DNA from: a virus
Virus record (IMG/VR): IMGVR_UViG_3300013120_000110
Location: 1-64,000 of that record
Length of the DNA: 64,000 nucleotides
Strand: one strand, 5' to 3'
A program made the translations under genes and the position numbers. Shown here piece after piece: positions 5,840 to 43,376 of the stretch (position 1 is its first letter; each line of letters opens with the position of its first letter). Below the pieces are notes generated by a model that had not been told where the DNA came from, did no database searches, and saw nothing but the letters and a program-made list of their open reading frames with translations.

Positions 5840-6093
5840 GTAATCACAGCCTATCGAGAGAAGACGCACAAGTAATCCGGCAAATCGCCAAGCGAGCAGG
5901 GGAGCACTTGGATTCAATCGAGACGTTTATCCAAGTGGCAACCTGCCACACCGGGCCCTGTCCGCTCAAGCTCCAAGAACTGTTGGAGGCCGATGACCTC
6001 AACTTTATCCACGACATTTGCGGGATCAAGCGCAACCTGGATACCCAAAAAGGGGAGTTACTTGACTGCTTCCTCCCCCGGTACGCAGTATAG
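5836..6093 (+). CDS. small helical protein (85 aa)
   Basis: 85 residues from a GTG overlapping the previous stop, with AAAGGAGGCGCC upstream. Helical, with CHTGPCPLKLQELLE in the centre; the two cysteines might bind metal with the neighbouring histidine. Not recognised. Confidence 0.7.
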   Translation: MSNHSLSREDAQVIRQIAKRAGEHLDSIETFIQVATCHTGPCPLKLQELLEADDLNFIHDICGIKRNLDTQKGELLDCFLPRYAV

Positions 6094-6157
6094 GAGTGAA
6101 TTGCCCATTGTGTTGGTGGGCAAGCTGCGGTGCCCTAAACCCCCATCGCAGCAAAGA

Positions 6158-6205
6158 GCCGGGTTCGCGCGGGGGTCCGCCTGGGTTGCCCCCGCTCGGC
6201 CCGGC
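6158..6205 (+). promoter_or_regulatory. GC-rich stem-loop in leader of next gene
   Basis: Two perfect stems stack: GCCGGG (6158-6163) with CCCGGC (6200-6205) outside, and GCGGGGG (6169-6175) with CCCCCGC (6189-6195) inside, separated by small internal loops. It ends 24 bases before the start codon and 12 bases before its AAGGA site. There is no T run, so regulation of translation or mRNA stability is more likely than termination. The surrounding 136-base gap holds no gene. Confidence 0.5.
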
Positions 6206-6229
6206 ATTTATCTAGGCAAGGACGGTAGC

Positions 6230-6619
6230 ATGTTCACAATAGACTGTACGGGCGACGTGGTGAAGGGGGATACGATTCAGTTCAAGGAGGCGGTGTGGGG
6301 GGGATACCGGCCCAGCGCCGGATGGCGCCATACATCAAAAAAAGGCCAGCCCCTTGGCGAGCGGGTCGTCGTGGCTGAGGTTGTGAACGACTCCTACGGG
6401 CGGAGCAAGGGCCAACACACCTTCACGCTGAGGGTGTTGGAATCAAGCGGGTACGATCCACTTGAGCCCAGTAGTGTAATCGTCAGGAAGGGGCGAAACG
6501 TCTACCGAAAGGGCACAATGCGCGTGCCCTGGGAAGATGAGGAAGCTCGGCACGTGGCGGCTGAGGAGAAGCATGAGCGGGGGGAAGAGGCTCGCAGAGG
6601 AAACCGACCTTATATGTAA
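6230..6619 (+). CDS. hypothetical protein (129 aa)
   Basis: 129 residues. The ATG follows AAGGACGGTAGC; an in-frame extension upstream runs through the structured leader and is rejected. Residues 1-90 appear beta-rich (MFTIDCTGDVVKGDTIQF, GERVVVAEVVND) like a small beta-barrel; the C-terminus is a charged helix. It is the last gene before a terminator. Not recognised. Confidence 0.7.
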   Translation: MFTIDCTGDVVKGDTIQFKEAVWGGYRPSAGWRHTSKKGQPLGERVVVAEVVNDSYGRSKGQHTFTLRVLESSGYDPLEPSSVIVRKGRNVYRKGTMRVPWEDEEARHVAAEEKHERGEEARRGNRPYM

Positions 6620-6727: not shown

Positions 6728-6763
6728 TACCGTCTGACATTACCCCAGAAAAAGGAGTTGACC

Positions 6764-6952
6764 ATGAGCACCGACCAGCGGCCAGGCGAAGACGGCTTTG
6801 TAAAGCCCGAAGACGAGACGGAAACCAAGCCCCTCCGCTACGATGAGGACGAAGAAGAATGGGACGAAGAGGAGGGCGACTGGGATGAAGAAGAAGAAGA
6901 TTGGGATGAAGATGAAGACTACTGGGATGAAGAAGAAGAAGACTGGGAATAG
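6764..6952 (+). CDS. extremely acidic, Trp-spaced protein (possible DNA mimic)
   Basis: 62 residues; from residue 27 nearly every position is Asp or Glu, broken at regular intervals by Trp in a repeating W-D-E-E-E pattern (five W-spaced units). The ATG has AAAAAGGAGTTGACC upstream. Runs of acidic residues with spaced aromatics are typical of DNA-mimic proteins that block restriction enzymes, nucleoid proteins or other DNA-binding proteins (established for families such as Ocr and ArdA, which are not sequence-related). Function here is inference. As first gene behind a strong promoter it should be well expressed. Confidence 0.75.
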   Translation: MSTDQRPGEDGFVKPEDETETKPLRYDEDEEEWDEEEGDWDEEEEDWDEDEDYWDEEEEDWE

Positions 6953-6961
6953 GGTGGCGCG

Positions 6962-7162
6962 ATGGACGTAGAACAGCACCATGATGGCTGGTGGGTGGTT
7001 GGGGACCCTCGGGACACAACTGGAGAGGGCTATGGTCCCCACCACACCAAGGCGGAGGCGCTAGATTGTATGCGAGCCGTTAAGCGGTTCCATCGGTACA
7101 AAAACGAACCTGGGTTCATCACACACGATGACTCCCCACAAAAAGAGGATAAGGATAAATGA
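6962..7162 (+). CDS. small protein (66 aa)
   Basis: 66 residues: a WWVVGDP strand, a segment GPHHTKAEALDCMRAVKRF that reads like the strand-helix end of small phage proteins, and a charged tail. Starts 9 bases after the acidic protein and overlaps the next ATG by four bases (ATGA). Not recognised. Confidence 0.7.
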   Translation: MDVEQHHDGWWVVGDPRDTTGEGYGPHHTKAEALDCMRAVKRFHRYKNEPGFITHDDSPQKEDKDK

Positions 7163-7626
7163 AAAGCAAAAAGCCAGCAAAGAAATGGTTTGTTTGGTTC
7201 TACTGGCACCTTCACCATGACATTCTCATGCAATGGTGTTACAGCTACACAGGCCGAAGGCGATCAATTATAGCATGGAAAGACCACAAAGCACTCCGGT
7301 TGCGATTATTCCAGCCGGTACGGGGAAAGCTGCCGTTACCGCTCATGCGTATCGGGAACAGGATGCTCGCAGCAATGAAAGCTCGGGACGCAGCCGACAC
7401 CCTGAGTGATGAATTGTGGGAGGTGTTGGACAAAGAACACACAATAGAAAACAAGACAAAATGGAAGGCTGCACTCGCAGTATATCAGAAAGCGGGGGAC
7501 CTCCTAGACGACCTCGAAGACAAGTGCGAACAGTTAATCATCAAACACCGCAAGGCCATCCTGAAGCTCCACGAACAGGAGTGCAAGAACTGTCCCTGGG
7601 ACGGCTGGACTATCTTCGATTCTTAG
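7159..7626 (+). CDS. family A paralog 1 (WH..HD / ECxxCPWxG protein)
   Basis: 155 residues, first of three related proteins in this array. Shared features: an aromatic start ending in H-x-x-H-D (FYWHLHHDIL), a middle LRLRLFQPVRG, a variable helical region and a C-terminal ECKNCPWDGWTIF. The C-terminal CxxC with upstream His could form half a zinc site. This copy has a basic N-terminal extension (KSKKPAKK) not present in the other two. Family not recognised. Coupled to the previous gene by ATGA. Confidence 0.75.
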   Translation: MKSKKPAKKWFVWFYWHLHHDILMQWCYSYTGRRRSIIAWKDHKALRLRLFQPVRGKLPLPLMRIGNRMLAAMKARDAADTLSDELWEVLDKEHTIENKTKWKAALAVYQKAGDLLDDLEDKCEQLIIKHRKAILKLHEQECKNCPWDGWTIFDS

Positions 7627-7664
7627 AATTAGTCTGGACACCACCGCCCGCAACCGCGCTGGAA

Positions 7665-7832
7665 ATGTGGGAGGAGGCGGAGGAGCCGGGCGAGCCATGC
7701 CCGAACTGTGCGAGCCTGGAATACTGGATCAACGTATTGGGTGGGCGCCGCTGCCTTGGGTGCGACCCACCTGACTTTGCCCGGGCTATCCGGTTACTAA
7801 CCACCGCTCGGGCCATACGGAAAGGGAAATAA
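7665..7832 (+). CDS. small zinc-ribbon protein (55 aa)
   Basis: 55 residues with two CxxC pairs (C12/C15, C30/C33) around a short aromatic hairpin, CPNCASLEYW then GGRRCLGCDPP, the pattern of a zinc ribbon like those at the N-terminus of primases or in stand-alone phage proteins. The start is uncertain: the ATG used has a weak site, and the frame is open further upstream into the end of the family A gene. Confidence 0.6.
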   Translation: MWEEAEEPGEPCPNCASLEYWINVLGGRRCLGCDPPDFARAIRLLTTARAIRKGK

Positions 7833-7833
7833 C

Positions 7834-8007
7834 ATGGATGGTTTCTGCCGCGCATGGTACTACTTCGCTGGTTCCATCCTGGGTGGGCTAGCCTCATCGG
7901 AAGCTGGACGCAGCGACTTTGCCGCTGCCACGATGTTTGGCTGCGGCGGCTGCCTGTGTTTTGCCATAAGTATGTGGTACAACCTCAAGATAGAGGAACG
8001 GGAATGA
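7834..8007 (+). CDS. small membrane protein (57 aa)
   Basis: 57 residues, too short for many gene finders. Residues 8-22 (WYYFAGSILGGLA) and 31-50 (AATMFGCGGCLCFAISMWY) are hydrophobic enough for two membrane segments, joined by a short polar loop. AAAGGGAAATAAC precedes the ATG and the stop overlaps the next start (ATGA). Its place between family A genes suggests the array may have a membrane component (inference). Confidence 0.6.
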   Translation: MDGFCRAWYYFAGSILGGLASSEAGRSDFAAATMFGCGGCLCFAISMWYNLKIEERE

Positions 8008-8423
8008 GATTGTGGTATTGGCACGCCTATCACGATGCGCTACTGACCCGCTCGGACGATCCAGATTTCTTTGCGAACCGGGCGCAGGAAATTGACCTGT
8101 TTAAGCCGCCCGAACAACTGGAACTACGGATGCGGTTATTTAAGGTGGTCCGAGGTGCCTTGCCCCGAATACTAGACGAACTGTGGGCGGAAAAAGAGGA
8201 ATGGGAGGCCGAGGCGCACACAACTATTGGGATATTGGCGACCAAGAAAGCCACCGTGCGCGCTGCAAAGCGATACCAGTTAGCCATGACGATGCGCGAA
8301 GAAATAATGCGCCGCATCACCGAAAGGAGCACGAGGCCAGATGTTATGGCCTTACATGATAAAGAGTGTCCGAATTGTCCCTGGAATGGTAAGAGCATCT
8401 TGGCAGAGGAAGACAAAACATGA
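8004..8423 (+). CDS. family A paralog 2
   Basis: 139 residues. Starts LWYWHAYHDALL, has LRMRLFKVVRG in the middle and ends with HDKECPNCPWNGKSIL, matching the other two family members. I chose the ATG that overlaps the small membrane-protein gene (ATGA, site AGAGGAACGG) rather than a longer frame. It is followed directly, by ATGA coupling, by the first family B gene, so A2 and B1 are probably made in fixed ratio. Confidence 0.75.
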   Translation: MRLWYWHAYHDALLTRSDDPDFFANRAQEIDLFKPPEQLELRMRLFKVVRGALPRILDELWAEKEEWEAEAHTTIGILATKKATVRAAKRYQLAMTMREEIMRRITERSTRPDVMALHDKECPNCPWNGKSILAEEDKT

Positions 8424-8893
8424 GTATCAAGAGTTGGAAAGCCAAATACCTGCCGGGGGAACTCAAAGACGCCATTGGTTCCCCCTTAGAGGCTGCCGAA
8501 CACTCCCTGCGCTGTTGGGAAGGGCGCCTGCCCGGCGTACTGAAGAAACACGGGCTGATGAAGCAAGCTGGGTCCGATTACATACGGACGATCAAGACAA
8601 GAAAGACTGAAAGTGGGTCCGACGTGTTCGACTTCGTTTGTCTGGACGGGGAAGCATGCGCCCTGTGTGCGTTCGCAGAGACAGAATTAAAGGAGTGGAA
8701 TATACTGCCTTCGGGAGTAATGCCCTGTTCATCTTGCCCGTTCTACAAATTACGGGGGGAGGTCCCTTGTTCAATAGAAAAAGATGATGAAAAATGCTCT
8801 CCATGGCGGGAGTGGGCTGACCACGGCGACCCTGGACCAATGCTAGCATGGTTACACACGCTAGTAGCTGAACTCAAAAAGGAGAAAAAATGA
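8420..8893 (+). CDS. family B paralog 1 (zinc-binding, HSL..W..G protein)
   Basis: 157 residues. N-terminal motif SWKAKYLPG, then EHSLRCWEGR and KKHGL; a cysteine cluster CALC...CSSCPF...C; then SPWREW and PMLAWLHTLV near the end. This order is shared by the two other B copies and resembles an uncharacterised phage family with N-terminal S-W-K-x-x-Y-P and a four- or five-cysteine metal site. Lacks the C-terminal helical extension present in B2 and B3. Coupled on both sides by ATGA. Confidence 0.75.
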   Translation: MSIKSWKAKYLPGELKDAIGSPLEAAEHSLRCWEGRLPGVLKKHGLMKQAGSDYIRTIKTRKTESGSDVFDFVCLDGEACALCAFAETELKEWNILPSGVMPCSSCPFYKLRGEVPCSIEKDDEKCSPWREWADHGDPGPMLAWLHTLVAELKKEKK

Positions 8894-9519
8894 GCATCGA
8901 AACCTGGAAATGCGAATACCTTCCAGTCCCCGCAGAAAAAGCTACCGGCTCCGCTTTAGAGGCAGCGCGACACTCACTCCAATGCTGGTTGGGGCGTGAT
9001 ATGGGCAGCCTAACACGGCACGAGTTGGTAAAGCGCCCGGGGTCTAAGGCTATCTATGAAAGAAATAACCCCATAAAGCTACTCAGCTTAGGACCCGATC
9101 AGTGTGCCTTGTGCCATTGGAGCGGGTTTGAGGGTGAGAACGGACGGGATTGCAGGAAATGTCCGTTATCCCAGGCGCGAGGGGGCGTACCTTGTGACTC
9201 CGATAACCACAACGAAATAGTCGAGAGAAACCCTTGGTGCGAGTGGCAAAACCACAACAACGCCGCACCAATGATAAGCTGGCTCAGGAGGGTGATCGTG
9301 AAACTACAGCAAGAGGACGAACACAAAAAAGCTGCGGCGGAAAAGAGTGAAAACTCATTCGTTCTCGACATTATTGCCGACCTACTCGCCCTGCATCATT
9401 GTTACCAATACGCCGACCTGGAACACGCCAAGCAGGCCCAAAAACTCATTGCAGAGAAAGTACAGGGCATAGTCGTCCTAACCGCGAAAAAACAAGCCCA
9501 AATCCCCTGGAAAGGATAG
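8890..9519 (+). CDS. family B paralog 2
   Basis: 209 residues. Same domain order as B1: SWKCEYLP, RHSLQCWLGR, CALC...CRKCPL...C, NPWCEW, PMISWLRRV, then an extra C-terminal helical region (residues about 145-205) beginning SFVLDIIADLLALH. That extension matches the one in B3. It directly follows B1, so here two B genes stand in tandem. Function not known. Confidence 0.75.
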   Translation: MSIETWKCEYLPVPAEKATGSALEAARHSLQCWLGRDMGSLTRHELVKRPGSKAIYERNNPIKLLSLGPDQCALCHWSGFEGENGRDCRKCPLSQARGGVPCDSDNHNEIVERNPWCEWQNHNNAAPMISWLRRVIVKLQQEDEHKKAAAEKSENSFVLDIIADLLALHHCYQYADLEHAKQAQKLIAEKVQGIVVLTAKKQAQIPWKG

Positions 9520-9524
9520 GTAAA

Positions 9525-9950
9525 ATGAGAAAGCTCTGGTTCTGGCACGCCAACCATGACGTTCTGGCGGGCGAGTTTTACGAAGGCTTTTATTGTGCTC
9601 GCAGAGGAGAAATCGAGTGCATAAAACCCAAGCGCGAACACGAGTTGCGGTTCCGCTTGTTCAAGCCCATACAGGGCCCAATACCCCAATGCGTCCTAGA
9701 CGCCTGGGCGGAGTTTAATGAAAGCATGACCGCACAATGGGTCGCACAACGCCGGTTCCTTGACTCAAAGTGGTGGTTCTGGTCCGTATACCTATGCTGG
9801 CGTGCAAGCAGGGCCGATAAAATCAGAACCCAGAAGGGGAAACACTACGAGGCGCAGCTAAACGGGCCAGAAATGGCCGAACTTCACAGAAAAGAATGTC
9901 CCGATTGCCCTTGGAATGGAAGAACCATTTTTGTGGAGGATTGCCCATGA
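9525..9950 (+). CDS. family A paralog 3
   Basis: 141 residues: LWFWHANHDVL, LRFRLFKPIQG and the C-terminal HRKECPDCPWNGRTIF. Starts five bases after B2; a longer frame into B2 is rejected because AAAGGATAGGTAAAATG gives a good site. The stop overlaps B3 (ATGA), repeating the A2-B1 arrangement. Confidence 0.75.
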   Translation: MRKLWFWHANHDVLAGEFYEGFYCARRGEIECIKPKREHELRFRLFKPIQGPIPQCVLDAWAEFNESMTAQWVAQRRFLDSKWWFWSVYLCWRASRADKIRTQKGKHYEAQLNGPEMAELHRKECPDCPWNGRTIFVEDCP

Positions 9951-10606
9951 GTTTGCAAAGCTGGAAGAATCAGTTCTACCCAATCGACGCGAAAGAGGCA
10001 ACCAGCGATGCCTTAACCGCCGCGCAACACTCCCTGCAATGCTGGCGGGGACGGACCAAGGAGGCACTAGAGGGTCACGGGCTAGAGAAAGTCCACGACA
10101 AGGCCGTTATTCAAGAGCGCGGGAACCCAGCGCGAAGTCTCTTACTGGAATCAACGGAGTGTGCCCTGTGCCAACTTCAGATTACAAAAAGTGGGGGTTG
10201 TGCCAAGTGCAAACTATGTGAGATACGCAGTCATAATGGTTGCTCCACCAGGATGATAGGCGAAAAGATGAGCCCTTGGGAACAATGGAGGAAACAAGAC
10301 AACGCCCTCCCGATGTTAGGATGGTTGCATAGCGTAGTGGTTCAGTTGGAGTCCGAGAAAATGGCCCGGGTCGAGCGAGAACACGCCGCCAAGATCGAGG
10401 CCAAGATGAAGGAAGCGGATACGGGGTTCATGTTCCACGATGTTATTGTCAAGCTCCTAGAGCTTCACGCTATCACGAAGGCCAGCCCACCCGATGAACA
10501 AAAAGCTGTTTGGGTCGTACTCGCAATCAAGCACGAACTAGACCGGATATTCCAAGTGATTCACACAAAACACCAAGAAGCTAAGGGGGTAGAGGATGAT
10601 GGATAG
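9947..10606 (+). CDS. family B paralog 3
   Basis: 219 residues. SWKNQFYP, QHSLQCWRGR, EGHGL, CALC...CAKCKLC...C, SPWEQW and PMLGWLHSVV in order, then a charged helix (residues 135-160) and a C-terminal region FMFHDVIVKLLELH like that of B2. It overlaps the following membrane-protein gene by 11 bases. The copies differ enough in sequence that the duplications are not recent. Confidence 0.75.
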   Translation: MSLQSWKNQFYPIDAKEATSDALTAAQHSLQCWRGRTKEALEGHGLEKVHDKAVIQERGNPARSLLLESTECALCQLQITKSGGCAKCKLCEIRSHNGCSTRMIGEKMSPWEQWRKQDNALPMLGWLHSVVVQLESEKMARVEREHAAKIEAKMKEADTGFMFHDVIVKLLELHAITKASPPDEQKAVWVVLAIKHELDRIFQVIHTKHQEAKGVEDDG

Positions 10607-11551: not shown

Positions 11552-11821
11552 ATGGAATGTAACTCATGTAAAAAAGAGGTAGATTCGGTAGTCTGCCTCT
11601 GTGAATCGTGCTACGACGGTACGCTCACGACCTGCACGAACCTATTATCCGCCCTCACGCTAGCCCAAGAGGTTGGACAATACTGGCGGAAGGACTGGTC
11701 GGGGTTCGATGGCCGCACCCTACGCGACCAAATGAGCGACCTCGGGGCAGTAGCGAGTGGGACCCTAAAACCGGAGCATTACCGGGAGAACTGGGGGCTA
11801 GATGAACCGGACGGGGATTGA
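11552..11821 (+). CDS. small zinc-site protein, paralog of 13.0 kb gene
   Basis: 89 residues. MECNSCKKEV and VVCLCESCYD give two CxxC pairs. The same N-terminal block (MEC..C..E..SVVCLCESCYD) opens the gene near 13.03 kb, after which the two proteins diverge, so a zinc head has been joined to different tails. It overlaps the DUF5131 gene by 20 bases. Confidence 0.7.
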   Translation: MECNSCKKEVDSVVCLCESCYDGTLTTCTNLLSALTLAQEVGQYWRKDWSGFDGRTLRDQMSDLGAVASGTLKPEHYRENWGLDEPDGD

Positions 11822-12551
11822 ATACGCAGACCTGACTTGGAACCCCATCACGGGTTGCACGAACCAGTTAGAGTGCCGTGAGCATTGCTGGGCTCGTAAG
11901 ATGGCGCTGCGCCTACGGGGGCGAAATGGCTACCCTGCCGATGATCCGTTCCGCCCGGCCTTCCATCCTGACCGCCTGATAGAACCGAGCCAACGCGCAA
12001 AACCCGCCCGGATTGCCACCTGTTTTATGGCGGATATGTTCTGTACTGGCGTACCAGCTTGGTGGATCGAGAGCGTTTGGGAAACAATGAGAGCGTGTCC
12101 CCACCATACGTTCCTTATATTAACAAAACAGCCCCAGCGGTTTACGAACAAGGAACTACTACTTGCCCTACCGGGTCTATTGCCGAACGTCTGGGTTGGC
12201 GTATCCTGTTGCAATCAGGCAACCGCCGACGAACGGATACCGTGGTTACTGAAATGCCCCGCTGCGATACACTGGTTGAGCCTTGAACCGATATTGGCCC
12301 CAATCAACATCGCGCCATTTATATCGGCTGGGATCGACTGGTGTGTTGTCGGCGGGGAAAGCGGCCACGGCGCTAAGCTAGTCCACGCTGACTGGGTGCG
12401 TACTATCCGCGACCAATGCCAACAGGCTCAAATACCATTCTTCTTTAAGCAATGGGGGGTAGGGATGGGGGGTGGGAGCGTAAAGGCTACGGGCCGGGTA
12501 CTAGATGGTCGAGAGTGGAGCGAAATGCCGAGGAGTTACAATGGAAGTTGA
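11802..12551 (+). CDS. DUF5131 (phage Gp37/Gp68) radical-SAM-like protein
   Basis: 249 residues, full length for the family. IEYADLTWNPITGCT is followed by a three-cysteine motif C19-x5-C25-x3-C29, then the family blocks ARIATCFMADMF, FLILTKQPQRF, VWVGVSCCNQ, WLSLEPILAPI, DWCVVGGESGHGA and FFFKQWG. DUF5131 proteins are widespread in phages and thought to be related to radical-SAM enzymes, with the cysteines expected to bind an iron-sulfur cluster; the reaction is not established. Start at the first ATG, overlapping the upstream gene. Confidence 0.9.
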   Translation: MNRTGIEYADLTWNPITGCTNQLECREHCWARKMALRLRGRNGYPADDPFRPAFHPDRLIEPSQRAKPARIATCFMADMFCTGVPAWWIESVWETMRACPHHTFLILTKQPQRFTNKELLLALPGLLPNVWVGVSCCNQATADERIPWLLKCPAAIHWLSLEPILAPINIAPFISAGIDWCVVGGESGHGAKLVHADWVRTIRDQCQQAQIPFFFKQWGVGMGGGSVKATGRVLDGREWSEMPRSYNGS

Positions 12552-25258: not shown

Positions 25259-25450
25259 CTAACTTGTGTTACAACAATCTTTGACAATCACTACATGGTT
25301 TGGACATGCAATCTTATCGTCAACCCAATGCCATCCTCCGGGCAACCACTCTTGTAGTTGTAGCGCAGTCCGAGGCTGGCTATACTCATGTGTTGCTGAG
25401 TGTACCGCATCGCAATAATCACACAGGAACTTATGCGTTACAAGCATCAT
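25259..25450 (-). CDS. small Cys/His protein (63 aa)
   Basis: 63 residues, MMLVTHKFLCDYCDAVH then CPNH and CC, enough for one zinc site. The ATG overlaps the RNA ligase stop (ATGA). Not recognised. Confidence 0.65.
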   Translation of the reverse strand: MMLVTHKFLCDYCDAVHSATHEYSQPRTALQLQEWLPGGWHWVDDKIACPNHVVIVKDCCNTS

Positions 25451-26442
25451 GTTGTTGCCTCCAAGTATTCTCCACTCACGACTTTAAGCTGAACCCTGCC
25501 TATCTTGTCATGCCAGCGCTCATGGAGCGGCTTGACAACACACCCCTCGCGCATGTTCGCTGCTAACATACTGGGCCCATCGGCGTAGCTACAGACCCGC
25601 TCGAAAGCGTAGTTGATCGAGGCGAGCATCGGCACTTGAGGGATTTCGTTCATGCAAAAAATGGTCCGACAAGCCATCGCGGGCGTCCAGGTCCTATCCC
25701 TCCGCAGTATGTCAAACCCCGCAAACTTGACCTCACCTCTCTTACACCCATACCGTAGTGCCTGGACTGAACCGTAGACCTCACCGTACACGATAACGCC
25801 CTCGTGTTTCTGGCAGAACTCCTCTAGGGTGGGTGTAGCTTTGAGGGCCTTCCACCACGTGTTGTTGGGATCGTAACGCTTCCATTCTGACCTGGAGCCA
25901 CACCACATACGACCCTCAGCCCATGCGAAGCGTGAATTGGCACCGTGAATCTTCTCGGTAATCAGTACCGGCTCACGATCCTCTAATACATTGGGATACC
26001 TACGCAACGAATCTATGTCGTACTTAGGTAGCCGCGAGAGTATCCCTGGTGGATGCTCAGCCTCTCCGCCAGTACAGGCCGAGGCTAGCTCTTGCTCGTA
26101 ATGCTCGACACCATAGTAGTCGGCCACGTTGCCCCCAACGCAGCTTACCCCAGGTGGGACGGGCATTAGGAGCCCAAAGCTCACCACGCCCCTGATCTTC
26201 CGTGCCCGAACGTGGTGCTTAGTCTTAGTCCCACCACCCAGGAAAGCAAACTCAGGGCGAGTTACGTCTACCACTGAATCGGGTGGGATGTAGGCGCCAA
26301 GCTGCCCGTCTTGCCAATCCTCTGTCCGCACTACACAGGGGTAGCCCCCGTGGACACGGACAATACTCAAGCTGTCGGCGTTTGGATGAGGTTCTAACTT
26401 AACCTCAACAACTTCGGCCTTGTGGGTACTCAGTTCTGTCAT
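25447..26442 (-). CDS. RNA ligase (DraRnl/Rnl5-type)
   Basis: 331 residues. N-terminal OB-like domain (residues 1-95, STHKAEVVEVKLEPHPNADS) followed by the nucleotidyltransferase domain: motif I K164-IHG, motif III VYGEVYG (218-224), IIIa FAGFDI (240-245), IV REGCVVKP (298-305) and V QLKVVSGEY (318-326). This domain order is that of the Deinococcus DRB0094 (Rnl5) RNA ligase family, which seals nicked RNA. ATG overlapping the ParB-like stop was chosen over a longer frame. In phages RNA ligases repair RNAs cut by host defence, e.g. tRNAs (established for T4). Confidence 0.9.
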   Translation of the reverse strand: MTELSTHKAEVVEVKLEPHPNADSLSIVRVHGGYPCVVRTEDWQDGQLGAYIPPDSVVDVTRPEFAFLGGGTKTKHHVRARKIRGVVSFGLLMPVPPGVSCVGGNVADYYGVEHYEQELASACTGGEAEHPPGILSRLPKYDIDSLRRYPNVLEDREPVLITEKIHGANSRFAWAEGRMWCGSRSEWKRYDPNNTWWKALKATPTLEEFCQKHEGVIVYGEVYGSVQALRYGCKRGEVKFAGFDILRRDRTWTPAMACRTIFCMNEIPQVPMLASINYAFERVCSYADGPSMLAANMREGCVVKPLHERWHDKIGRVQLKVVSGEYLEATT

Positions 26443-27263
26443 CGTATGATCTCCCAGTATTCTCCGTCTTGCCACGCCTTGAGCACGCGGCGCATCCGGT
26501 GGATTAAGTCCCTTACAACAGAATGATGTGAGCCTGGTCGAGCCGCGCCCAGGTCACTCACAGACCTCTCGAACACGTTCAGCCGGTGGTTGGCCTCATG
26601 GAACCACGTCGTAGCAGGCTGGTAAGAGACGTGGCCCTTCGGCTGTCGCTTCTTAGAGGGCCGCTCACCAAACAGGGCTGCATACAGAGACGAAAACTCA
26701 CCCCGTTCCACCTCCCCAATGAGACGGCGCTGTTCACCCTCAACCAGAGAGGCTAGTTCCTCGACAACTCGCCCCGACGCCTTCAGTACACCAGTAGCGA
26801 TGGCCTGCTGAATATCGCGGGGTAGTTTCTCAAAAGCCCGCTGGTACACCAAAGATCGGTAAACCCGATGCTTAGTGACGCGCATCTCCTTCCCTAGCTC
26901 TGCCTGAGTTGTGTGTTCCTCGGCCATAGCCTTCAAGCGAGCCGCCAAAAGAAACTCATCGTGCTGTGTCATGTTGCGGCGCTGGCGATGCTGCTGAAGC
27001 CTCCACTGTTTAGCCTCAGCCATGGTCGGAAAGTACAGTGGGGTGGTGCTAAACGGTAGGCCGTGTTTGACGCAAATCTTGTAGCGGCGGTAGCCGTCCA
27101 CAATGATTACCTTCTTGCCCTTTGGTTCCGGCCAAACCTTGATGCTATCGCAAGGGCCACCCGACTTCAGAACGTCCGCCTCCAACTCAATATCACACTG
27201 AGGCGATGGCTCGGGTAATAAAGAGGATAACTCTTGGTCCTGTGTCAGTTTTACGTCACTCAT
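26439..27263 (-). CDS. ParB/Srx-like nuclease-fold protein
   Basis: 274 residues. Residues about 40-95 carry the ParB N-terminal pattern: DSIKVWPEP, VIIVDGYRRYKICVKHG (the GxRR box) and MAEAKQWRLQQHRQRRN. A helix-turn-helix follows (TTQAELGKEMRVTKHRVYR). The C-terminal helical region is not assigned. Such proteins bind DNA and CTP, or act as methyltransferase or nuclease partners. Start chosen at the ATG with AAGGAGGAAACTA, overlapping the upstream stop by eight bases. Confidence 0.8.
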   Translation of the reverse strand: MSDVKLTQDQELSSLLPEPSPQCDIELEADVLKSGGPCDSIKVWPEPKGKKVIIVDGYRRYKICVKHGLPFSTTPLYFPTMAEAKQWRLQQHRQRRNMTQHDEFLLAARLKAMAEEHTTQAELGKEMRVTKHRVYRSLVYQRAFEKLPRDIQQAIATGVLKASGRVVEELASLVEGEQRRLIGEVERGEFSSLYAALFGERPSKKRQPKGHVSYQPATTWFHEANHRLNVFERSVSDLGAARPGSHHSVVRDLIHRMRRVLKAWQDGEYWEIIR

Positions 27264-35267: not shown

Positions 35268-38200
35268 TTATGGGAATATCTCCCGCACAAAGCCAGCCAT
35301 CGTCCGAGCCCGCTCCTTCTCTTCTTGGTCCTTGGCTCGCGTGTTTGCGGTCATGGCGCCCCGCCGCATCACGCTCCGTAACTTCTTATCCACAGCCAAG
35401 TTAGCTGTCACGGCGTCAGGTATCTCGCCCGAGAGGCCCATCGGCAGTTGCTTCAGGTTCATCAGGGCGTTTGCCGCCCACTCCGAATCTTCCGCCAGCC
35501 CGGCCCGGAACTCCGCTTCGTACCCTGGCTCCTCTTTTTCTATTGCCAGCCGGATTTTCTTGGTCAGCGGCAGGTAGGATTTGTTGTACCACTCCTTGAG
35601 CAGCAGGTTTTCCAATAGCTCCCGATCTCCGGCATCAGCGGCATCCAGGTTGCTCTTGCGGTAGTGCTCCTTGGTCAAATACCGGGCCGAATCGGGCAGA
35701 CCCAGCTTGAACCGGGCTGCCTCAGCCTTGTTCGCTTGAATCTCAGCCCAATCATCCTCAGTGAGCCCCCTGTTACTGACCCGCACGTAGCGGTTCCAGC
35801 CAACCGGGAGGTTGACGATCCGCTCGACCAGCGTTTCCTCACCGGCCTCGAAAGAGCGACCCCAGAGTGGAGCCGTGAGAATATGGGTAAGCTGTCCCGC
35901 TGAGCCGAACTGGCCCTCAGTCCAGGCCATCATCTTCTTTGTGGATTGCCAGCCACCATGCTCCCACTCTGTCTTGGGGACTATATCAGCCCCATAGAAG
36001 TTATCTCTTGGGTTCCTACCGCAGAAGAACTCGGCCCATTTCTGCGCGATCAACAGTGGTGGGGATAGGTTAGGCACTAGGCCGTCATAAAGCGTGTCCG
36101 CAGCCTCCGCGAGTGCGCCTTGTGGGCTACCGGCCCGCGTCTCAACACCTCCCAGTTCGAGTGCGGCGTCAAGGAACGCGCTCCAAACCCCCGAGATTAG
36201 CTGGCCCATCTCATCCTTCGGGATGGTAAAGAACACAGTCTTTAGACCAAGCGGGGTCTTAACCTGGCCGAGGGGCACCACGTCATAGTTGCGGAAGAAG
36301 TAGGTCCCGATCCACCCCAGGATGGATTCCTGGTTACGCGCTTCTTCCTCCAGGTCATCACCACCACCAAAAATGCTGGCAAGGATGGCGTTTATACCCG
36401 TAGCGGGGGCCCCGTACTTAAACGCCTTGGAAATGGTAGTCGAGGCTATATCTGTCCAGAGGCGGCGGAACCACCACCCCGACCTTGTTCCAGACTTTCG
36501 GGCTAGCCGCAGATCGGCCACCAACCCCTGCCACCTCACGTTGCTATACATAAATAATGAATTGGTGATCGGAGTCCACAGGCCCCGCTCCTTAAAATTA
36601 GGGGTTCCGGCATACTCCCGAACCACAAAGGCTTTCTCGGGGTCGGAGATCAACTCAATCCCCAGCTTCTTGGCTGCCTCTTGGCGCTTGGTAATCATCT
36701 GCCAAGCGGATACCTTACCTGCTGTTTCTTGCACGTTCCCCATCCACTCCATACCCCGCAGTACCTTACCGAGTATGGGCACCGAGCGCTTCTTGGCTGT
36801 CTCAAAAGTGCCGATTCCAAACCGGCGCATCAACCGCTGCGCCTCCCCCCCCCTCATGTGAGATTCAACCTCTACAAAGGGGATGGAGAGTGCGCGAGAG
36901 TGGAACATCTCATCAATCGTTGCATCATCAATCCCAGCCGCCCGACGGGCAGCCACGCTCTTTGCCTTCCAATAGGAGGATAAGACCTCCCCCAGTGTGA
37001 TTACCTGCGCCCTGGAGTGTTTCCGTGCATCCTCTTTGGAGTAGCCCTTCTTGAGAAGCTCCCGCTCCATCTTACTCTCCCACTGTTCCGAGACGGCGCC
37101 CAGGTTGTAGTAGGTGCGCCTCAAGTCACGCATCGGGTTCGCTGCAAGGAAGCCGGGGTTCCAGGAGACGAATAGCCGATGGAAGACCCCATAAAGCGGG
37201 TTGGATAGGAGGCGTCCCACAAAAGCTATCCGCCCAATATCGAAAGACCTGAACCCATCGGCTATTTCTTCGGCCACTAAATAGGCTTTATGTTTGCCAT
37301 CCTCTAGGATAACAAGATAATCTTTCCCGTCTGGTGGTCGCCTTAAAAGTTGTGGGTTGCCGCGTGGGACAGGAACAGACTTAATGGATTCAGGCCAATG
37401 CTGGAGCATGAACTCTCGGGTGGCGTTCTTTCCACGGTTTAGGTCAACCAACCGAACCAAGGACATCATTTTCATAACGGTGGAATCATAGACATTGGCC
37501 GTTGGCTTGAATGTCCCCACTTGTTCTTGAATCATCGGAGAAATGCGCGTTTCAAGGTACTGAACTACTGCAAAGGCAGCATAATTATCCTTATTCGGCA
37601 CAATGACATTCTCAAAAAGTTCTCTGCTATACACCCCGGCCTCTACAGCACTCTCCACAATCCCGAAGACTAGATCATGGAATCGCTGCATGTGATCTTC
37701 AAGTAAGTCAAACTTTCTATCCCCTAACTTTCTCCGCAGCGACTCCAGTTGTTCGGCAGCCGTTTCGGGCGTAAATCCATGTGGATATGCAACTATATTT
37801 CCTTCACGATCCGTAATTCGGCGCAAATACAAGAACTCGCCGATGTCATCCCGTGTAATTCCTTCTTTGTAAAGAGGCTCCTGTACCTCCGCGTGCATCC
37901 GGCTCAGGAACTCCGCCTGGGGGTTGTCTGTATAACTTAACTCACTCAGAGTGTAGTAGGCTGCCAGCGCCAACTTGTTTTCAGGGTCTTCATCTAGGGT
38001 TTTTTCAATTAGATTGTAGAGTGGCATCTTAGAGCGTAAAAAGTACTGACTGAGAATATGCCGTATCTGAGCGAAGATATTGCGCTTTCGTTCTTCTTCC
38101 TCGGCTCGAATGGCCTCAAGTTTCTCATCCCCCGCCAAGTGCCCGCCTCGTAAGGATGCCCGCCTCGCCACCGCCCTAGCATCTTCCGGCTGGTTAAGCA

Positions 38201-41200
38201 CATCTTGAATCTTCAGAAATGCGTCAAGGAACTCAGGCTTTTCATTAAGCCAAGCCTGGAAACCGCGATAAAACTCAGGGGCTCGCTGGGCCAACTCACC
38301 TGGAGCATTAAAGAAGACACTCAGCGCCTCGGCGTACAACTCCTTACCCTCCCGACGGTACTTGATGTAGCGTTGGGTAGATGTAGCCGGATCGTATGGT
38401 GTCCACCACATTGTGAGCTTGAGAAGTTCGTCTCGTATGTTCTCAGCCGTGAGTAGCATACGCTTCTCAATCTCATCCCGTAGCATTTCCTGATACTTCC
38501 GGTGAATCTGTTCGGCGGTGGCATCCTCTTCCACGACCTGCTTGATAGTGCGGCCCGTCTTCTCTCGGACCTCCCGTGTGAACTGTTGTAGCTCGTCCGC
38601 CACTACCCCTCGCATAGCTTCTTTCACAATAGACAGCTTCTCAACAGCGCTCAACTGCTTGATATAACGCAAGAGGTCTGGGTTGTGTACGCCACCTTCC
38701 ACGCTATTCCAAATCGCCAGCACATCCTCGGGTGTAATCCCAAACCGCTGAACAATCTCTTCCTCAATCTCAATCTCCACACCCTTCTGCGAGAGGCGCT
38801 TGGCCTCCTTCTTGAGCCTGTTGCGTTCCTCTTCAGTCAAGGGCTGGGGCCCACCAGGATAGCCCGCTATCCACGCTTCCCCGAACTCGGCTAGTGAGGC
38901 TATCCGCCCAAGGATGTTGCCCCGATTCATTGACTTAATACCCAGCCAATCAACAAGGTGCCCAATCTCATGCGCTAGAACCTTGGCTAACAACCCTTCT
39001 TCACGCGCGGAGATAGCATTTATCACCATACGGGCAAAGGCTTTAGTGGGCTGGGGGTCAAAAAAGCCGAGGTAGGATTGCAGCTTCTTAACCTGTGGTA
39101 CTTTACCAAGTAACTCCTTGATGAGCCGGATCAATTCCGGGCCGGGAAGAGGCTGCATACGCACACGCTCTACCTTCGGAGTGGTTTCATCCGGGGCTTG
39201 GTCGTAGGCGTCACGCGGCGCCTCGGGTCCTGGTTCTGGCTTGTAGTCGGGCGGGAACCCACCTACAGCACCCTCGGGTATCCGCTGCCCTTCAACTCCC
39301 CCCCCGCCACCTGTACCGGGCGGGGCGGCGGTAGGCTCGGTGGGTGCGGGAGGCTGTACCCAGCGTATCCCGTTAATCGCTGCTTGAGCATCGGCCAGTT
39401 TGGACGGCAGCCCAGTCTTCTTTTCTTCGGCACCCCACTCTGTATCCTGACCTGTGACCGTGATGGGGTTGGCTTTGGCTGGCCCCGGCTTGGCCTTGGC
39501 GCCCTTCTTCGCTGTCGGGGGTGGTGGGATGGGCGGGCCAGGGCCCCAGACTGCGTTCAGGCCCTTGGCTGTTTTTTTGACAACAAAACCAGCTTGTTCG
39601 AGTTTCGTTTTAACAACATCCCGGGGGGCTTTCCGCTTGATCCCCATGTCTTCTAGGTTGACCCCAACCGTCATGCCTGGTTTCAGTTCGCCGGGGTGTA
39701 GCCCGAATAGCTCTGGAGCGAATGAGAACTTGTAGCCGTCTCGATAGACCAGGCGCAGGCCAAACACCTCATAGCGCTGGTCGGTTCCACCGTACCTGTC
39801 TGCAACTACACCATGTACCTCAAGCTCCCCTTCGTGAACCGTAAAGACAGGATCGTAGGCAAACTCTGCCACTTCCTCCGCGAGCCATGCTATAGTGTTT
39901 TTGGCCCGGGTCATGTTGCCAAGTAACGGGGCTGCAAAGTCACCCGAGTCTAGTATTATGTCCGCTTTGGTTGGTGTCGGCGCGGCGCCTGTGTGTGGGT
40001 ATAGTAGCTTGCCTTCTGTACCTGCCCCCAGCTTATCGTCCACCCATTTCAAGCTACCATCTTCCCAAACATCAACCGCAACCCGAGCGCGTTTCGATGC
40101 TTCGGCGGGGAACTCTTTGGCGTTAGTCACGGGTGGCAGGTCTGCCCCTAACTCATCTAGTAACACCACGAGTTGTCTGAGCTTAGCGGGGACACCACTA
40201 CGGGCAAAATATTCATTTACCCCAATATGTATCAAGCTGTATCGCGGTATGTCATTTCCCTTGGCGTCCACCTTATGGTTTTTGGGATCACCGCCCTTCC
40301 AGTTCTCTCGGATTGCCCAAATCCCCCCAGGCAGCGGTTCATAAGACAACCATTTCTTTACGGTTCGAGTAAGCGGATTGCCTTCGGCATCATTTTTGCC
40401 GGTTGGAACGCTAACCTCAAGCTCAACTTCCTCCTCCTTGCCCTTGATTTTTTTTGCCTTCTCATTTACGCTATCCCAGAAGCGATTCTCAGCAACCAGG
40501 GCCTTGCGATGTTTTCGCTTTGCCTGAGCTTCCTCCTTTTCGCTTACCGCTCGCTTAGCCTTTTGTTTCTCGCGTTCTGCTTCTAGCTCTTTTTCGGCAA
40601 CAGCTTTGGCAACGTCATTTACCTTTGTGGCCTCGGCAATAATCTCATCGCTACGCTGGAACCAATCTTTGTTGCGCCGAACAGCCTCTAGGCGTTTCTT
40701 AAACCCTGCCCGATCTTCGTCAGAGAGGGCCCTGAGATTTTGGAGGCGACTCAAATGGACCTGGGAGCGGGCTCCCATATACATTTCGGCGTTGCCTTTG
40801 ATAGACGAGGCTAGTGTCTGAGTTTCGGACGGGTGGCCCCAGTCGAAATAGACGCGCTCGGCGGTACTGCGTAACTCATCCTCATTTAAGAGGTGGCCGT
40901 ACTGTGCCTCCACTTGCTTAGCGATAATGTCCTGAAGGCGCTGAGAGTAGCGGGTTTGGTTGGCTGTGTGTTCGCGGGCCTTAGAATCGCTGGTTCCCTC
41001 ACGAATGGCAAGGCGCCCCTCTCGCTCATACGCCCACGGCAGCCAATGAGCTTCCGTAGGTGCAGCCTCCATCTTGTCCTCTATAATCGCCAGGTCGAGC
41101 CTACGCTTATAGGGTTCCTGTTCTTTTTCAATGTCCCTGATAGCGCGGTTCTTTTCCGTAATCTCCGCTTGGAGATTCCTGCGCTTCTTGTGGGCGTTGC

Positions 41201-43376
41201 GCCGTGTCTTAGCCAGGGTCTTCTCTAACTCATCCCGAGCCTTCCTGATCTCTCGAATCTTCTCTTGCCCATGTGCGGCGCCCAACCCCCAGGAATCACG
41301 CTCACCCTTACCCTCGGGGAGTGGCTTGCTTATTCGCCCGGTAGGTGGGCGTACCCACGGCTCATCGGGTAACGGGGGTCGGGGTTCCTCTGCCGGTTCC
41401 TCTTTAACCTCTTCCTCAACAGGAGGCTCCGTAACTGCCGGAACACCAGGCTCAGTAGGCGAGGGAGCTTCTTCTTCAACTGGCCCAAATGATACCTCAC
41501 CCCTCTTTTCTTTGTAAAGCCAAAGTCTCGGGCCGTGGTGTTGTAAAAGCTCGGCTGTTTCAGGAAAGTTTTGGGCAAACTCTTCGTAACCCCAACCACG
41601 CTCTATACCGGCTTGCATTTGGTTGCCAACCGTATCGCCATCGGCGTCAGGCATTGGCAGGTTTAACAGTTCTATATTGACCCCTGTTTCCGGCAGGTAT
41701 AATTTTTCTTCGCCCAAATCTGGTTCGGGGGCACCCTTGCGGGCATCCTCCCAAATCTGCTCAAAGTTTTTGCCTTTAGCTCGCTGGATCGTGGTATATC
41801 GCCCCCACGGGGCGGCCCTATTAGCAGGCGAAGCGTTATATGCTTGTTGAAAAGCGGCTGCTGTGGGGAATTGAGCGACGTGTTCTCGGGGGCTTAGCTC
41901 TTTTTCTTCTTCGCTGGGCTCTGATACTTCCCGAGGCGCTTGTCCGCCCGGAGGAACTTCCGGGCGACCTTCACTGACGGGGGGGACTTCAGGTACTTCG
42001 GTTTCCACCCGTGGGCCCGCGCCCTCATCAACTTGTTCTGCTTCTTGCTTACGCTTGGCATCTTCCCGCTCCTTTATCTTCTGCGCAATCCTTTGTCGCG
42101 CTTCTTCTTCTTTCTCTGCTGGGGTGCGCGGGCCAAGCCTGCGCAGCGGACGGGCAGCCATTCCCGCCGCAGCCGCGCCACCACCCATCACGCCAGTCAA
42201 GATCGTAGTTGGGGCGGCAATCTCCTTGAATGACTTCCATTGGTCGGCGGGGGAAAGCTGACGCCGGGGTGGTTCCTCAGTCATCCCCATACGGTGTTCG
42301 GCGCCGACCTGCCCCGTTTGCGTCACCGTCTCTGTAGCATACTCGCCCCCTAGCGCTTGCGCAAAACCCCTAACGGCACTCGCCGCCACTCGTCTACCGG
42401 CCAAGCCCATAAAGACCCTGCCTAATCCAGTCATGGTCAGGAGGTTCCCCATCGCCTCGGGCCCAGCTTCCCACAAAGCGTGGCGGGATATTTCGGGCAG
42501 GTTCTTTTCCAGCGCTTCGGCCCGCTCCTCATCTGTTAGCTCACGCCCCAGCGATTGCTCAATGGAGTCAAAGAAGGCCCGAGTGACCATGGCCTTGTCC
42601 ATCTTGTAGGCCGCCCGGCCCGACCAGGCTAGCATACCCGCTGCGCCACCAACCTTAGCACCAAGCGGGACGGTTACTGGCGCGGCTGGCCCGCCAGCTA
42701 ACCCAGCCCCGGCGCCTGTAATCGCTCCAACCATCAAGCCCTTTAGACCCTCGATCATAGAGACGGTAGAGAAGCCGGTGCTTGCGGCTGTTTGCTCAAT
42801 ATCACCAACCATAAGATGGGGCAGCGGGATGGGTCCAAACCTCTCTGGCGTTACGGGCATCTCCCGCTGTTCGTCGGTCAACTGGGCTGCGCGGTAGCGC
42901 TCCCGTTCTTGTGCCGCCTCAACCGCTACATCTGCCGCAGTATGCTGGGCGAGTGGGTCGGGGTCTTCCTTCATGTGGCCCCGGGCACCTAGAGTCTGGA
43001 TGGGAATGTCATAGAGTAACCTTCCCATCTGCCTGCCGCCGACCAGCGTACCCTTGGGGGTCCACTTCATTGGCGGGAGAGGTTCGGGCTCTATGATCTG
43101 AGGTGGGTGGGGCAGAGCCCTAACCACTGGAGGCCAGAATGGCACTTGTTCAGCGGGCTCTGGTTTCTCTGTGGGCTTGGCTAGAGGCTTGGCGGGAACC
43201 TTGGCGGGTTTTCTGGGGGGTCGAGGTAGAGCCCGGCCCACATAAGGGGAAACTGGGGGGGCAACTTCAGCGGGAACCTCAGTGGCAAAGTCTTCCCATG
43301 ACGTACCAGCCGCCGCTTGTGCTTTAGTAGAGGTTTTCTCTTCCTCTACGGGCGTAGCGTAGTCTTGCCAACTCAT
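35268..43376 (-). CDS. giant polyvalent phage protein with HExxH and LPD38-like region (2702 aa)
   Basis: 2702 residues, the longest gene here. N-terminus has two near copies of a SWxDxAT motif and proline-rich linkers; hydrophobic Gly/Ala segments lie near 210-250 and 395-420; a long coiled-coil zone is at about 760-1000. HEIGH at 1469-1473 is a zinc-peptidase motif. A C-terminal third (about 1990-2330) contains SWNPGFLAANPMRDL and long helical segments as in the large polyvalent protein domain LPD38 (inference). Such giant late proteins are packed in the virion and injected with the DNA. ATGA overlap with the upstream gene; ends before the promoter at 35.2 kb. Confidence 0.85.
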   Translation of the reverse strand: MSWQDYATPVEEEKTSTKAQAAAGTSWEDFATEVPAEVAPPVSPYVGRALPRPPRKPAKVPAKPLAKPTEKPEPAEQVPFWPPVVRALPHPPQIIEPEPLPPMKWTPKGTLVGGRQMGRLLYDIPIQTLGARGHMKEDPDPLAQHTAADVAVEAAQERERYRAAQLTDEQREMPVTPERFGPIPLPHLMVGDIEQTAASTGFSTVSMIEGLKGLMVGAITGAGAGLAGGPAAPVTVPLGAKVGGAAGMLAWSGRAAYKMDKAMVTRAFFDSIEQSLGRELTDEERAEALEKNLPEISRHALWEAGPEAMGNLLTMTGLGRVFMGLAGRRVAASAVRGFAQALGGEYATETVTQTGQVGAEHRMGMTEEPPRRQLSPADQWKSFKEIAAPTTILTGVMGGGAAAAGMAARPLRRLGPRTPAEKEEEARQRIAQKIKEREDAKRKQEAEQVDEGAGPRVETEVPEVPPVSEGRPEVPPGGQAPREVSEPSEEEKELSPREHVAQFPTAAAFQQAYNASPANRAAPWGRYTTIQRAKGKNFEQIWEDARKGAPEPDLGEEKLYLPETGVNIELLNLPMPDADGDTVGNQMQAGIERGWGYEEFAQNFPETAELLQHHGPRLWLYKEKRGEVSFGPVEEEAPSPTEPGVPAVTEPPVEEEVKEEPAEEPRPPLPDEPWVRPPTGRISKPLPEGKGERDSWGLGAAHGQEKIREIRKARDELEKTLAKTRRNAHKKRRNLQAEITEKNRAIRDIEKEQEPYKRRLDLAIIEDKMEAAPTEAHWLPWAYEREGRLAIREGTSDSKAREHTANQTRYSQRLQDIIAKQVEAQYGHLLNEDELRSTAERVYFDWGHPSETQTLASSIKGNAEMYMGARSQVHLSRLQNLRALSDEDRAGFKKRLEAVRRNKDWFQRSDEIIAEATKVNDVAKAVAEKELEAEREKQKAKRAVSEKEEAQAKRKHRKALVAENRFWDSVNEKAKKIKGKEEEVELEVSVPTGKNDAEGNPLTRTVKKWLSYEPLPGGIWAIRENWKGGDPKNHKVDAKGNDIPRYSLIHIGVNEYFARSGVPAKLRQLVVLLDELGADLPPVTNAKEFPAEASKRARVAVDVWEDGSLKWVDDKLGAGTEGKLLYPHTGAAPTPTKADIILDSGDFAAPLLGNMTRAKNTIAWLAEEVAEFAYDPVFTVHEGELEVHGVVADRYGGTDQRYEVFGLRLVYRDGYKFSFAPELFGLHPGELKPGMTVGVNLEDMGIKRKAPRDVVKTKLEQAGFVVKKTAKGLNAVWGPGPPIPPPPTAKKGAKAKPGPAKANPITVTGQDTEWGAEEKKTGLPSKLADAQAAINGIRWVQPPAPTEPTAAPPGTGGGGGVEGQRIPEGAVGGFPPDYKPEPGPEAPRDAYDQAPDETTPKVERVRMQPLPGPELIRLIKELLGKVPQVKKLQSYLGFFDPQPTKAFARMVINAISAREEGLLAKVLAHEIGHLVDWLGIKSMNRGNILGRIASLAEFGEAWIAGYPGGPQPLTEEERNRLKKEAKRLSQKGVEIEIEEEIVQRFGITPEDVLAIWNSVEGGVHNPDLLRYIKQLSAVEKLSIVKEAMRGVVADELQQFTREVREKTGRTIKQVVEEDATAEQIHRKYQEMLRDEIEKRMLLTAENIRDELLKLTMWWTPYDPATSTQRYIKYRREGKELYAEALSVFFNAPGELAQRAPEFYRGFQAWLNEKPEFLDAFLKIQDVLNQPEDARAVARRASLRGGHLAGDEKLEAIRAEEEERKRNIFAQIRHILSQYFLRSKMPLYNLIEKTLDEDPENKLALAAYYTLSELSYTDNPQAEFLSRMHAEVQEPLYKEGITRDDIGEFLYLRRITDREGNIVAYPHGFTPETAAEQLESLRRKLGDRKFDLLEDHMQRFHDLVFGIVESAVEAGVYSRELFENVIVPNKDNYAAFAVVQYLETRISPMIQEQVGTFKPTANVYDSTVMKMMSLVRLVDLNRGKNATREFMLQHWPESIKSVPVPRGNPQLLRRPPDGKDYLVILEDGKHKAYLVAEEIADGFRSFDIGRIAFVGRLLSNPLYGVFHRLFVSWNPGFLAANPMRDLRRTYYNLGAVSEQWESKMERELLKKGYSKEDARKHSRAQVITLGEVLSSYWKAKSVAARRAAGIDDATIDEMFHSRALSIPFVEVESHMRGGEAQRLMRRFGIGTFETAKKRSVPILGKVLRGMEWMGNVQETAGKVSAWQMITKRQEAAKKLGIELISDPEKAFVVREYAGTPNFKERGLWTPITNSLFMYSNVRWQGLVADLRLARKSGTRSGWWFRRLWTDIASTTISKAFKYGAPATGINAILASIFGGGDDLEEEARNQESILGWIGTYFFRNYDVVPLGQVKTPLGLKTVFFTIPKDEMGQLISGVWSAFLDAALELGGVETRAGSPQGALAEAADTLYDGLVPNLSPPLLIAQKWAEFFCGRNPRDNFYGADIVPKTEWEHGGWQSTKKMMAWTEGQFGSAGQLTHILTAPLWGRSFEAGEETLVERIVNLPVGWNRYVRVSNRGLTEDDWAEIQANKAEAARFKLGLPDSARYLTKEHYRKSNLDAADAGDRELLENLLLKEWYNKSYLPLTKKIRLAIEKEEPGYEAEFRAGLAEDSEWAANALMNLKQLPMGLSGEIPDAVTANLAVDKKLRSVMRRGAMTANTRAKDQEEKERARTMAGFVREIFP

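Follow-up and report, generated by a model that had tools for sequence, protein, structure and literature searches.

Phages carry tandem arrays of duplicated small early or accessory genes, which in gene organization are the closest described counterparts of the locus analyzed here. At the protein level, the nearest comparisons are with coiled-coil proteins built on heptad or hendecad repeats and with Rad50, whose zinc hook holds a metal at the apex of a hairpin and joins two molecules. The locus occupies positions 7159 to 10606 of a 64,000-nucleotide stretch (hereafter the window), the first 64 kb of IMG/VR record IMGVR_UViG_3300013120_000110, a tailed-phage genome of 78,709 bases, and consists of six small genes of two protein families, A (A1 to A3) and B (B1 to B3). 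A sequence-only reading had proposed that A and B work as a pair, with copies specialised for different targets, for example in defence or counter-defence. We find that A and B are two real, diverged and retained paralogous families, both new to databases, for which two separate accessory families are a likelier reading than a single system of two parts.

The reality of the two families is evident from searches within the record itself, in which A2 recovered A3 at E=1.4e-21 and A1 at 1.9e-8, and a B profile matched all three B genes at 9e-55 to 9e-50, these copies being rows of that profile. Pairwise identity is about 27-37% among the A copies and 37-40% among the B copies, and no further copy of either family was found outside the array in the 78.7-kb record at E<=0.001. 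The conserved parts of A and B have no significant match in Pfam, PHROGs or NCBIfam, and the library matches that family A members do obtain are mostly to coil or low-complexity families. A match of B3 to the C1/phorbol-ester family (C1_1; E 2.5e-4) was rejected as a match of zinc-protein composition, with 21.2 bits against a cut-off of 26.5 and in one member. No homologue of A or B was found among INPHARED phages and PLSDB plasmids with the queries tried, and literature searches returned nothing on either family. PADLOC gave no match at E 0.1 for A1-A3, B1-B3 or two relatives, and the suggested defence or counter-defence function thus gains no support from that source. The genes of the array and the small open reading frames (ORFs) among them are as follows.

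7159-7626, + strand: A1, family A protein of 155 amino acids, with motifs HLHHD, RLRLF and ECKNCPW
7665-7832, + strand: small interspersed Cys4 (zinc-ribbon-like) ORF of 55 amino acids, CPNC...CLGC, start codon uncertain
7834-8007, + strand: hydrophobic, probably membrane, ORF of 57 amino acids, joined to A2 by ATGA
8004-8423, + strand: A2, family A protein of 139 amino acids, with motifs HAYHD, RMRLF and ECPNCPW
8420-8893, + strand: B1, family B protein of 157 amino acids, joined by ATGA to A2 and B2, without a C-terminal helical extension
8890-9519, + strand: B2, family B protein of 209 amino acids, with the C-terminal helical extension
9525-9950, + strand: A3, family A protein of 141 amino acids, with motifs HANHD, RFRLF and ECPDCPW, start taken as the ATG at 9525
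9947-10606, + strand: B3, family B protein of 219 amino acids, with the C-terminal helical extension, joined to A3 by ATGA, start taken as the ATG at 9947

The coordinates of the six genes agree with those first read from the sequence, as do the two interspersed small genes, of which the 55-residue Cys4 ORF has no match in the profile libraries. The B motifs HSL-x-CW-x-GR, CALC and PM-x2-WL recur in B1, B2 and B3 as described, and so do H-x-x-H-D and E-C-x-N/D-C-P-W in the A copies, but the third A motif, given as R-L/M-R-L-F, is properly R-[LMF]-R-L-F. Just 5' of the array (6758-6952, + strand) lies a 64-residue, very acidic ORF with DEEEEDWDE-type repeats that derive from a 21/42-bp tandem repeat.

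In maximum likelihood trees, the window copies of A form one clade (95/87), with A2 and A3 as sisters (96/86), and those of B likewise form one clade (100/93), so that, with regard to the earlier view of an old array, the duplications of each family took place in the phage's own lineage and were followed by long branches. Both families are missing from the TerL-related phages G374 and G375 (48-49% terminase identity, one of them a 33.5-kb record), which marks the array as accessory.

Counted on whole sequences, relatives of family A occur in 43 other IMG/VR records, comprising 31 from a first search and 12 from a later scan with a tighter N-terminal alignment, the first N-terminal-only alignment having been too diverse; relatives of family B occur in 37 IMG/VR records. 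A B gene is present in one of the 43 A-bearing viral records (G010; one of the first 31 and none of the later 12), and the four cellular genomes that carry A have none. Conversely, an A gene is present in three of the 37 B-bearing records (G010, G060 and G061), representing two viruses, as G060 and G061 have A-B loci that score nearly alike and resemble one virus sampled twice. The genes of an obligate two-gene system are conserved together, and on these whole-record searches we reject A-B as such a pair. A and B lie apart in most genomes, which is what the sequence-only reading had itself named as speaking against its proposal, even though many of the records are fragments and observed co-occurrence is somewhat lowered by this. 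Arrays of A alone are found at L055/L072, L056, L057, L075/L078 and L159, arrays of B alone at L082 and L092, and family A is present in Yanofskybacteria chromosomes without B. No convincing carrier of A other than G032 emerged among 287 genomes of its phylum, and an A match in G036 (E 3.4e-4) was discounted as it spans coil positions 54-118 only. Contig ends often truncate family A genes (L053, L059, L075, L076, L078, L125 and L126), as would be expected if internal repeats or several copies break assembly, and the counts for A may therefore be low.

Some features of the array and its relatives nevertheless recall subunits of one complex, acting in defence, counter-defence or as a toxin-antitoxin system and duplicated as A-B units for different targets. 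A2-B1 and A3-B3 are adjacent and joined by ATGA, as had been claimed; G060/G061 independently have an A gene (L119 5557-5964) 30 nt upstream of a B gene (L119 5995-6363); and the two families lie 1.6 kb apart in G010. Both are rare, with tens of matches in 2.9 million contigs, and their observed co-occurrence exceeds the tiny chance expectation. However, ATGA joins also occur between B1 and B2, between the hydrophobic ORF and A2, and between an upstream ORF and A1, and among window ORFs of 55 or more amino acids there are 32 candidate joins of the ATGA/GTGA type, spurious ORFs included. Such start/stop overlaps are generic in this phage, and we therefore reject them as evidence of pairing. Duplication as a whole A-B unit, which would predict B1 and B3 as sisters, is likewise not supported by the trees, in which B1+B2 is favored (93/63) and the B1+B3 alternative is not rejected (approximately unbiased test, pAU 0.38); the C-terminal extension, too, is common to B2 and B3 and not to the A-linked B1 and B3. 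Together with the scattered distribution and the Yanofskybacteria that keep A without B, this makes a single complex improbable in our judgment. Shared lineage, habitat or gene-dense accessory regions could account for the residual co-occurrence, and a loose link through the same gene neighborhood or habitat, or through occasional partnership, may exist. In G060 (L119 1021-11926), the genes that flank the A-B pair encode a ThiF-like protein, a radical SAM protein and an AAA ATPase, a setting that recalls the PRTRC gene set.

Family A has a core of W-H-x-[H]-H-[DE]-x-L-x-E, a helix with conserved R, I and K, the motif R-L-R-L-x-[KR]-P-V, an insert, and a C-terminal motif, L-H-x2-E-C-x(1-3)-C-P-W-x-G-x-T-I-F. 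The candidate ligands kept across the family are two His, of which the second stands one residue earlier in two relatives, and two Cys, both of which are kept while their spacing varies between 1, 2 and 3 residues, as metal ligands would be expected to behave. An AlphaFold2 model of A3 built from 32 sequences (mean predicted local distance difference test score, pLDDT, 94.7) shows a beta-turn that carries the HxxHD loop, followed by two helices, a long helical hairpin (residues 55-80 and 84-112) and the C-terminal motif, and Foldseek returned no match for it in PDB or BFVD at E<=0.001. The two halves of the proposed metal clasp of A3, for which metal is a prediction from the residues kept, are located as follows.

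9546-9560, + strand: N-terminal half of the putative clasp (H8-A-N-H11-D12), in invariant or near-invariant columns
9885-9914, + strand: C-terminal half of the putative clasp (H121-R-K-E124-C125-P-D-C128-P-W), in invariant columns

Between these ends, the insert ranges from 17 to 137 residues across relatives, in which its growth is driven by repeats. In 34 of the 46 sequences tabulated (redundant records included), self-similarity of the insert peaks at a lag of 7 or 14 residues, a lag of 11 is seen in L067, L075/L076, L078 and weakly in L077, and tandem repeats are visible in the DNA itself, of 21 bp in L128 and of 33 bp in L075. Two Yanofskybacteria metagenome-assembled genomes (L123 and L128, at about 5974-6582) carry orthologous A genes at the same chromosomal locus amid cellular genes; the two loci can be aligned through the flanks and through both ends of the gene, and their inserts differ by 63 + 105 = 168 bp, equal to exactly eight 21-bp units. 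The locus is thus a natural case of coiled-coil length change, by eight whole heptads, in a bacterial chromosome. Over the conserved ends, dS is 0.175 and dN 0.025, a ratio of nonsynonymous to synonymous change (dN/dS) of about 0.14 that is rough, as it comes from 84 codons with few changes. In this pair, the ends of the A gene are under purifying selection while the length of the insert changes. Other relatives combine a short insert with an N-terminal rod. In L033 and L172 this rod consists of pentapeptide repeats (Pfam E 2.5e-26 and 3.1e-27) and in L070 of GIEAG repeats; L080 is arranged in a related way.

The high divergence of the copies (27-40% identity) would also be expected of drifting, non-functional duplicates. 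All six frames are however intact, the clasp or Cys motifs are kept despite that divergence, conservation extends family-wide to dozens of relatives, and dN/dS in the close A pair, itself not of window copies, is low; we find drift hardly credible, and the earlier description of two diverged but retained families stands.

Family B is marked by M-S-[LI]-x2-W-K-x-E-F-Y, H-S-L-x-K/C-W-x-G, C-x-L-C, C-x2-C-P-L, a fifth Cys and P-M-[IL], and the five Cys are invariant in the 36 rows of its alignment; that the N-terminus is invariant is in part owed to the search pattern with which the relatives were collected. Conserved His and Cys positions of the kind expected of a zinc-ligand set are thus present in both families and, as they are kept across dozens of relatives, A and B are probably metal-binding. 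The AlphaFold2 model of B2 (mean pLDDT 90.0) has no significant fold match in PDB by Foldseek, and kinase-like matches were discarded (probability <=0.2, root mean square deviation mostly 12-17 Å). In one B gene (L082 3797-4402 / L155 3692-4468), the first 28 codons (MSIETWKKEFYSVEAGILNSAADVVLLE) are tandemly repeated.

The gene neighborhoods bear on two further explanations. Among 108 scanned neighbors of family A were four DUF5131 genes, several DNA methyltransferases and single RecT, RusA and NinG genes, and neighbors of family B, drawn partly from one group of related large phages, include ERF, Mgm101, SSB, ThyX and BrxL-like genes. DUF5131 is common in phages, and its association with family A is seen at five independent loci, one of them in the window:

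11802-12551, + strand: DUF5131 (PF07505 / phrog_2045) protein, a recurrent family A neighbor elsewhere, by association only

This protein also matches the PADLOC candidate families PDC-M41B and PDC-M30B. Neighbors in DNA metabolism and modification (RecT, ERF, SSB, methyltransferases, ThyX), together with the weak scores of the B profile against C4 zinc fingers of the eS27 type (E 0.3-0.5), are consistent with A and B being nucleic-acid-binding zinc proteins, that is, accessory factors of DNA or RNA metabolism or of transcription, instead of protein-binding adaptors. Against this, neither family has a significant family or fold match, the net charge of A2, B1, B2 and B3 is near neutral, and charge across family A runs from -13 to +26 with no conserved basic signal, so that we regard this role as rather unlikely. 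With the same span of charge, a reading of A as a DNA mimic is not supported either.

A structural or virion-associated function, in which A would use its variable coil as spacer or ruler, would suit the length-variable coiled-coil inserts and the fusions to beta-helical rods (pentapeptide in L033 and L172, GIEAG in L070). The array, however, belongs to a block of small rightward genes that reaches to about 15 kb, on the strand opposite to the structural genes; the terminase and a portal-sized neighbor run leftward at about 66.9-71.1 kb of the record, and other large, apparently structural genes run leftward at about 35-66 kb. With DNA-metabolism genes among the neighbors elsewhere and A in a cellular chromosomal locus amid housekeeping genes, a structural function is highly improbable. 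Among the leftward, apparently structural genes is a 2702-residue ORF (35268-43376, - strand), and an RNA ligase with a PHA02142-type OB domain is encoded at 25447-26475 (- strand).

The explanation that we favor, and to which we give an even chance, is that the array holds two unrelated small accessory protein families of a tailed phage, A being a metal-clasped hairpin and B a zinc protein, and that each family expanded through duplications along the lineage of this phage and was retained in its rightward, non-structural gene block. Family A would be a helical (coiled-coil) hairpin in which the N-terminal beta-turn His and the C-terminal H-x2-E-C-x(1-3)-C bind one Zn; the two ends would meet at this shared metal, which would close the base of the hairpin and leave its length and surface free to vary. 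Family B would be a compact Cys4/5 zinc protein. In the weakest step, A and B may be binding proteins, adaptors or inhibitors, that act, probably at an early stage of infection, on macromolecules of the host or the phage, with each copy tuned to a different partner via the hairpin in A or the C-terminal helices in B; the two need not act together. Three observations weigh against this explanation: the A-B adjacency in G060/G061 fits poorly with a wholly pair-free role, the chromosomal A genes of Yanofskybacteria misfit a purely phage role, and A1-A3 of the window have no repeat periodicity detectable by self-similarity scan.

More tentatively, family A may be a modular device of phages and one candidate-phylum bacterial lineage, in which a small metal clasp joins the ends of an extendable hairpin or, in an alternative form, caps a beta-helical repeat rod. 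If so, reach and binding surface would change in whole 7- or 11-residue steps with the fold undisturbed. We consider family A the more interesting of the two and the part worth following, as a testable case of a coiled-coil insert that changes length by whole repeats between fixed putative metal-ligand ends, in viruses as well as in a bacterial chromosome. Both families recur, structure prediction is confident for each, and neither has a known relative at a significant level; they are worth naming and likely to be met again in uncultured phages. The adjacency and ATGA joins of one phage would suggest a two-part system, but the wider distribution says otherwise.

Compared with the tandem arrays of small genes described in phages, the locus is alike in that its ORFs are small and intact and overlap at their starts and stops, in that duplication was specific to the lineage, and in its place within a non-structural block; it differs in that the conserved parts of A and B match no Pfam, PHROG, NCBIfam or PADLOC model. 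In family B, the C-x2-C ... C-x2-C arrangement is like that of the eS27/S27ae C4 zinc fingers, but the similarity is not significant and B2 has no fold match in PDB. Pentapeptide-repeat proteins (PF00805) resemble the N-terminus that L033 and L172 join to the A core, whereas the window A copies have no such repeats. With heptad and hendecad coiled-coil proteins, family A has in common the 7- and 11-residue helical repeats in the insert of relatives, and its weak matches to Alanine_zipper and surface-protein coils are composition-driven; it differs in that its conserved part is the flanking His/Cys ends and in that the window copies are aperiodic. Finally, the Rad50 zinc hook matches A in neither sequence nor fold, and the likeness is an analogy only, between one metal site and another, putative one, each combined with an antiparallel coiled coil, the motifs of A being placed where they would sit at the base of the hairpin and not at its apex.

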